NCBI GenBank assembly: GCA_012960475.1
Contig: DUBE01000056.1
Span: forward strand, 4,324 to 68,323
DNA from: Planctomycetota bacterium
GTDB taxonomy: Bacteria; Planctomycetota; UBA1135; GCA-002686595
DNA: 64,000 bases
Direction of reading: 5' to 3'
Shown: in pieces, positions 49,535-50,632 of the stretch
Numbering within the stretch: the first letter of the stretch is position 1
Layout: each line of letters begins with the position of its first letter
Notes under the pieces: model-generated
What the model saw: the letters and a program-made list of their open reading frames with translations, nothing else
Database searches by the model: none
Told to the model about the DNA's origin: nothing
Position numbers and translations under genes: made by a program

Positions 49535-49627
49535 TAACTGCTGACACCAGGCCGAAACACACTCTCTGGACCTTCAAGCCTGGGGCGAAGGTGCGCAGAA
49601 TTTGGCTGGGCCTGGTGTCAGCAGTTA
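49535..49627. repeat. Perfect 19-bp inverted repeat with a nested 6-bp hairpin
   Basis: The arm at 49535-49553 (TAACTGCTGACACCAGGCC) is exactly repeated in inverted form at 49609-49627, with 55 bases between. Inside, ACCTTC (49570-49575) pairs with GAAGGT (49587-49592). On the minus strand the structure begins exactly at the TAA stop of the thioredoxin-like gene and ends ten bases before the patatin start codon. There is no T-run. It may control termination, RNA stability or patatin translation. Confidence 0.7.
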
Positions 49628-50632
49628 CTTCATGGCCCACTCGGCCAGCACCTCGGCCCGCACGGCCACTTTGGTGCCTGCGTGCTTGGAAGCGAGCTTG
49701 GCAATGCGGCGGCTGAGTTTCTCGTCGGGGCCGTCCTCGTAGAAGGCGCGCTCCAGACGACTCAGTTCCTTGGCGGCGGCGAGTTCTTCCTTGGCCTCCT
49801 CGATGGTCTCGGCCAGGGGCTCAAGGCGCCCCAGCAACATATCATCGCGCTTGGATCCCTTGAGCAGAACGCCCACGAGTTCCTTGGCGCGCTGGGGGTA
49901 ACCGTTCTCCAAGAGCCATTCAGCCCGCGCGACAAAGCTGTTGAAGGCACGATCCAATTCCTCCTTTTCTTCGCCCAGGGCCGCAGCGGTGACACCTTCT
50001 GCGTCGGCCTCTTCCTTGGCCAGGGCGGCCCTGGCCTTGGCCCACTGACCTTTGACCCGCAGCTTGCGCACCTTGGCGGCCTCCTTTGGCAGACCCTTGG
50101 GACCCTTCTTGCTGCGCGCGATGGCGGCATCGATCTCCTCGGTGATCTTGCCGTGATCCCTGAGGGGATTGCCCATGGAAACGATCTTGCCGGTTTCGTC
50201 CAGCAGAGCGTAATTCGGCAAGCCCTTGGCGCCCGTCATGAACGGACGCTCTCTTGTCCACATCATCTCTCGCCCGAGCCATTTGCGGCCCGCAGCGAAC
50301 TTCATGAATTTCTGCTCGTCAGCACCCTGACACTCCACCAGGATCACGGCGAGATCGCTTCCATATTCTTCCTTCAACTTGACGGTGGCCGGCACGGACC
50401 CCCCAACACAGGGGCCTCACCTGGTGCCCCAGAACTCCACCAGGATTGGTGTGCCCCTGAGGTCCTTGAATGACTTGACGCCGAAAGAATCCGCCGGAGC
50501 CTTGGAGAAGGTCTTGTCGATCTGATCGCCGACCTTGACATTTTCCAGGGCTCTGCTGCCGGAGTTGAAGTTGAATGCTGAACAGACCAGCGTGAGGCCA
50601 GCAAGTCCAAGGGCAAGAGAAGTGTTCTTCAT
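49625..50632 (-). CDS. Candidate selenoprotein: thioredoxin/TlpA-like with UGPC motif
   Basis: The frame runs 335 residues with one in-frame TGA (50417-50419) at residue 72. Just before it reads ILVEFWGTR and just after GPCVGGSVPATVKLKEEYG, so TGA takes the place of the first Cys of a WxxxCGPC redox site, as in TlpA/thioredoxin-like proteins. The frame does not shift. The N-terminus is a signal peptide (SLALGLAGLTLVCSAF); the thioredoxin fold continues to about residue 160 with a cis-Pro-like KGLPNYALLDETGKIV; the rest is helical and charged. If the TGA is read as selenocysteine this is an exported redox protein; if it is a stop, the gene is broken by a single-base change. A GTG at 50395 could start only the distal part, which would lack the redox site. 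Confidence 0.8.
50384..50419 (-). promoter_or_regulatory. Possible bacterial SECIS hairpin just after the TGA
   Basis: Counting from the base after TGA, GGUCCG (17-22) pairs with CGG and ACC (26-28 and 31-33) with a 2-base bulge, leaving the three-base loop UGC with G in second place, 24 bases after the TGA. Bacterial SECIS elements typically have a short apical loop with G among its first two bases at a similar distance. The stem is short and competing foldings with the adjacent G6 and C4 runs are possible, so this is tentative. Confidence 0.4.

Follow-up and report, generated by a model that had tools for sequence, protein, structure and literature searches.

The stretch of DNA analysed here (64,000 nucleotides, hereafter the window) belongs to a Planctomycetota MAG of 3.83 Mb in 68 contigs, which is 90% complete. 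The gene under study lies on the minus strand; its whole coding sequence of 335 residues (49625..50632) runs from an ATG to a TAA, an extent shared by full-length homologues. Read from 50632 to 49625, the frame consists of 71 codons, a TGA, 263 codons and the TAA, without any frame shift, and its translation is MKNTSLALGL...FWGTR*GPCVGGSVP.... Sequence and translation match exactly the original prediction of an in-frame, minus-strand TGA within FWGTR-TGA-GPCVGG. Read as selenocysteine (Sec), the TGA (50417..50419, minus) is residue 72 and the first position of a UGPC motif, with the TGT at 50408..50410 (minus) as its resolving Cys75. A mechanical ORF list cuts the gene into pieces of 71 and 256 amino acids, the latter starting from the GTG at 50395, and reproduces the split that had been expected of a gene caller.

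Neighbouring genes encode a patatin-like protein and a Xer-type recombinase; the translations alone suggest, for three others, an MFS-like transporter, an anthranilate/aminodeoxychorismate synthase-like protein and an oxidoreductase. Their order is kept in congeners, and no evident redox link was seen among the neighbour genes in this genome and its congeners. An inverted repeat whose two 19-nt ends match perfectly (TAACTGCTGACACCAGGCC) is located between the gene and the patatin-like gene (window positions 49535-49627), one arm of which contains the gene's stop codon. It was not found at the corresponding place in the close relatives L063 and L064.

Comparisons between congeners yield dN/dS values of 0.08-0.25 before the TGA, 0.05-0.07 for the 99 codons after it (the closest pair giving zero) and 0.09-0.13 for the C-terminal part. 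These estimates indicate strong purifying selection both before and after the TGA.

The TGA column among homologues

Close relatives are mostly Planctomycetota MAGs (bin32s, ARS68, ANT-43), with 83-94% identity over the best segment. Homologues were matched in 86 of the 154 genomes of the order (threshold E<=1e-15) and span the full gene length with one internal TGA. Among the 91 homologues that align at the position of residue 72 with an alignment score >200, the codon there is TGA in 83 cases, TGC in four and another codon in four; within the order there are about 20 Sec forms for each Cys form. The alignment thus returns TGA or Cys at the column, as predicted for the first Cys of a CxxC motif. 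The same alignment column carries the TGA in five other species of the genus and in these 83 homologues, so its position is not due to chance. Every homologue with U or C at column 72 retains the second Cys. This Cys is lost too in the four homologues with another codon, i.e. the redox site is gone there as a whole.

Loss of both redox residues (replaced by AA, WG, QT or a gap) with the remaining chain kept is observed at L021, L116, L117, L120 and L050, in genomes G024, G075, G056, G055 and G007, respectively, of which G024 and G007 possess SelB. Judged by their sequences, homologues lacking both residues are possibly non-catalytic versions.

A lone TGA interrupting a frame that is otherwise open could stem from one wrong base, whether through an error in sequencing or assembly or through a nonsense mutation that recently created a pseudogene. 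The identical TGA is found, however, in 83 homologues from independent assemblies, and its recurrence in more than 80 assemblies shows that it is not a sequencing error. The low dN/dS downstream of the TGA and a hairpin conserved only in TGA forms (see below) likewise stand against an error or a pseudogene, the probability of which we consider negligible.

The UGA could also be a true stop that separates a 71-residue exported peptide from a 256-residue protein, for which the GTG at 50395 is a legal start. Such a split would fall inside the active-site motif and the predicted thioredoxin fold, however, and the residues between TGA and GTG, the resolving Cys among them, are conserved. Moreover, the Cys homologues L049, L107, L114 and L132 each form a single uninterrupted chain. 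A genuine termination at this position is therefore very improbable, and a continuous protein with Sec at residue 72 is the reading followed here.

In a quick maximum-likelihood tree, the root of which is not known, Cys forms are interspersed with Sec forms at three or more points, a nesting which suggests that Sec preceded Cys in the gene family. Genome G025 possesses both a Sec copy (L013) and a Cys copy (L049), and the two group as sisters. Strong family members were also detected outside the order by a profile search over the phylum, most of them with one TGA. A planctomycete of another order carries two divergent, adjacent copies (G310:C34:18191-20475), one with a TGA and one stop-free.

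A SECIS-like hairpin downstream of the TGA

Independent evidence for Sec, absent from the original prediction, comes from a SECIS-like hairpin (50384..50403, minus) composed of the arms 50403-50397 and 50390-50384 and the loop CGUGCC (50396-50391), which starts 20 nt downstream of the UGA. Among 75 distinct sequences, the region 16-35 nt from the U of the UGA comprises a 7-pair stem around the loop [CG]GUGCC. Pairing is possible in 84.8% of the cells and both-side changes are found in all seven pairs, e.g. at alignment columns 20-33 (GC in 38, CG in 26, AU in 3) and 21-32 (GC in 48, CG in 15, AU in 7), counts that do not equal independent events as the sequences are related by descent. The covariation score is 0.441 versus 0.154 +/- 0.018 for shuffles, none of 500 being as high, and reaches at most 0.177 when the hairpin is slid along the alignment. 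Loop positions GUGCC are invariant in 75 of 75 sequences, including the third base of a Val codon. The four Cys homologues lack the hairpin, with one to three of the seven pairs left. In L014 and L086 one codon is deleted ahead of the hairpin and the hairpin sequence is kept.

The bSECIS model demands a G in the first two loop positions, a spacing of 16-37 nt and an MFE <= -7.5 (PMC13188914). These rules are satisfied by 79 of 80 members, versus 14% of in-frame positions picked at random from these genes. The window's own hairpin forms six of seven pairs (one mismatch) and its energy is marginal (-7.6), just within the bSECIS rule. Folded alone, it does not exceed shuffled sequences in stability, and RNAalifold returns a weak consensus (-1.3) for all 75 sequences; for 21 sequences, the consensus energy lies far beyond that of synonymous-codon shuffles (z -9.2). 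A stronger competing hairpin starts immediately after the UGA in the window's copy, a region that would lie in the mRNA channel of the ribosome while the UGA occupies the A site.

Selenocysteine machinery and other likely selenoproteins

The genes selA, selB, selC (tRNA-Sec) and selD, proposed for a search of the genome along with the prediction, are all present. selB is located on contig C5 (PF09107, 57.1 bits), selA (381.8 bits) and selD (333.7 bits) on contig C66, together with a tRNA-Sec with UCA anticodon (73.7 bits versus a gathering score of 47). SelB is found in 41 of 41 related genomes searched. The host selD has an in-frame TGA of its own near the N-terminus (YAACAGU; C66:5443), which we take to be the known Sec site of SelD.

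Targeted searches of the host genome add nine or more likely selenoproteins, a lower bound. Besides SelD, in-frame TGAs are present in UGPC proteins (C65:37137, C63:10563, C44:19649 and C29:41267), a UGAC protein (C18:18020), a TxxU peroxiredoxin (C27:37494) and a YTUPPF protein (C27:4094), the latter presumably deiodinase-like by its motif. The paralogues on C63 and C44 possess an identical CGUGCC loop with GUGC/GCAC arms at the corresponding place. With a threshold of six for "selenoprotein-rich" (PMC5029168), the host genome is rich in predicted selenoproteins.

A further selenoprotein candidate is a DsbD homologue on the minus strand of contig C43 (DsbD_TM, 89.2 bits), with a TGA at 198432-198434 (L176: 1096-1098; L179). 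It reads ...NFTGFN-TGA-VNCR, the TGA being at the first Cys of the periplasmic thioredoxin domain. Of 25 loci in this genome and related ones, 21 have TGA and 4 have Cys at that column, with the second Cys following in every case, and the host gene has a SECIS-like hairpin after the TGA. Another weak match to a DsbD gamma domain, with one TGA inside, is found at C43:164343-164603.

Since several genes of the genome contain an in-frame TGA, the UGA might be read as another amino acid, via a changed code or near-cognate read-through. Against this stands the use of TGA as the commonest ordinary terminator, closing 26 of the window's 38 long frames (a few of them antisense), from which it follows that the genetic code is not reassigned as a whole. 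The in-frame TGAs inspected are furthermore at redox-active or known Sec positions, Cys is the only sense alternative at the column that retains its partner residue, and the genome has dedicated Sec machinery. Decoding as an amino acid other than Sec is consequently also very unlikely, and that the TGA encodes Sec is, in our judgement, nearly certain.

Protein domains and probable export

A probable signal peptide extends from residue 1 to about residue 29 (50546..50632, minus), recognised by eye from K2 followed by a hydrophobic stretch; such N-termini are clearer, again by eye, in orthologues (e.g. AGAASAQ in L007). Residues 33-155 (50168..50536, minus) form a predicted thioredoxin/redoxin-like domain, according to a Pfam Redoxin match (E 9.8e-5, below the curated cut-off for the window's member), a match to the PDB thiol-disulfide oxidoreductase 2lja (E 5e-11) and the invariant columns at residues 72, 75 and Pro139. 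From its place in the sequence, Pro139 is likely the cis-Pro. Residues 180-335 (49628..50095, minus) form a conserved C-terminal region, helical by prediction and possibly TPR-like, delimited by model helices and purifying selection: the AlphaFold model, built with five close sequences, has a mean pLDDT of 49, with helices of pLDDT 67-83 at residues 231-330, and a few members give weak TPR matches in this region. None of the NCBIfam models reaches its cut-off for the protein.

The prediction of an exported Sec-containing redox protein holds for Sec, by TGA conservation, machinery and hairpin; its export part is suggested by the N-termini read by eye. That the gene product is an exported redox protein appears likely, with good confidence. 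Taken as a whole, the gene product is very probably a TlpA/ResA-type thiol-disulfide oxidoreductase that is exported and whose predicted attacking residue is Sec (UGPC).

Comparison with known systems

Bacterial selenoproteins of the UxxC type include thioredoxin-like, redoxin-family (PF08534) and cd02966 thiol-disulfide isomerase-like proteins (Table 1 in PMC13188914) and the "Trx-like 1" proteins of the GOS survey (PMC2398784). As UxxC thioredoxin-like selenoproteins are thus a published class, known from marine bacteria (PMC13188914, PMC2398784), the gene is less novel than the original prediction implied. The gene shares with them a predicted Sec in the first position of a thioredoxin-type redox motif, an in-frame UGA followed by a SECIS and the existence of Cys homologues. 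It differs in belonging to a family with a conserved helical C-terminal region that no NCBIfam model covers at cut-off, and in the excess of Sec over Cys forms within the order. Its assignment as a previously unnamed member of the known UxxC class is well supported; it may belong to one family with HEU0032618.1, the published "Redoxin family" representative. The planctomycete selenoprotein literature considered (Porphyra isolates P1/P2, PMC4807772; general surveys) does not name this family.

With TlpA/ResA, the Cys forms of which are represented by PDB 1jfu, 1st9 and 2lja, the protein has in common a thioredoxin-like domain behind a probable signal peptide, a WGxx[UC]xxC motif and Pro139 at the cis-Pro place. 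In contrast to TlpA/ResA, Sec replaces the first Cys and about 155 additional residues form a predicted helical region at the C-terminus; the sequence similarity is distant. Sec has also been reported in cd02953 (DsbD-gamma-type) proteins, the "Trx-like 2" group of the GOS survey (PMC2398784), to which the separate UxxC DsbD of this genome and its relatives corresponds. The gene under study is a different gene, for which the Sec-DsbD is only a possible electron donor.

Proposed mechanism and implications

By analogy with the established bacterial pathway, SelB loaded with Sec-tRNA-Sec would bind the hairpin after the UGA, and the ribosome would then decode the UGA as Sec without stopping. The protein probably reduces or exchanges disulfides outside the cytoplasm; Sec72 would attack the substrate disulfide and Cys75 would resolve the intermediate. 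Its reductant may be the host DsbD, which likewise would carry Sec in its periplasmic thioredoxin domain; a functional link between the two proteins is conceivable, and DsbD as the actual partner is a tentative suggestion.

Because gene callers cut such proteins at the active site, widespread Planctomycetota redox enzymes are likely misannotated. About 80 Sec forms, a few Cys forms nested among them and covariation in the SECIS provide material for the question why Sec is kept over Cys, and the family also suits the question what SelB recognises. The interesting parts are the strong lineage-wide preference for Sec and its joint occurrence with a Sec-DsbD. Given at least nine other likely selenoproteins including the Sec-DsbD, a selenium-based periplasmic reducing relay is plausible, and the co-occurrence makes it a concrete, testable idea. 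In its widest form, which is possible but still doubtful, periplasmic disulfide reduction in an order-level clade of Planctomycetota would be run by selenium, leading from Sec-DsbD to several exported Sec-TlpA-like reductases, with Sec as the rule, Cys rare and derived, and a SECIS design (a CGUGCC-loop stem 20 nt after the UGA) shared by several families.
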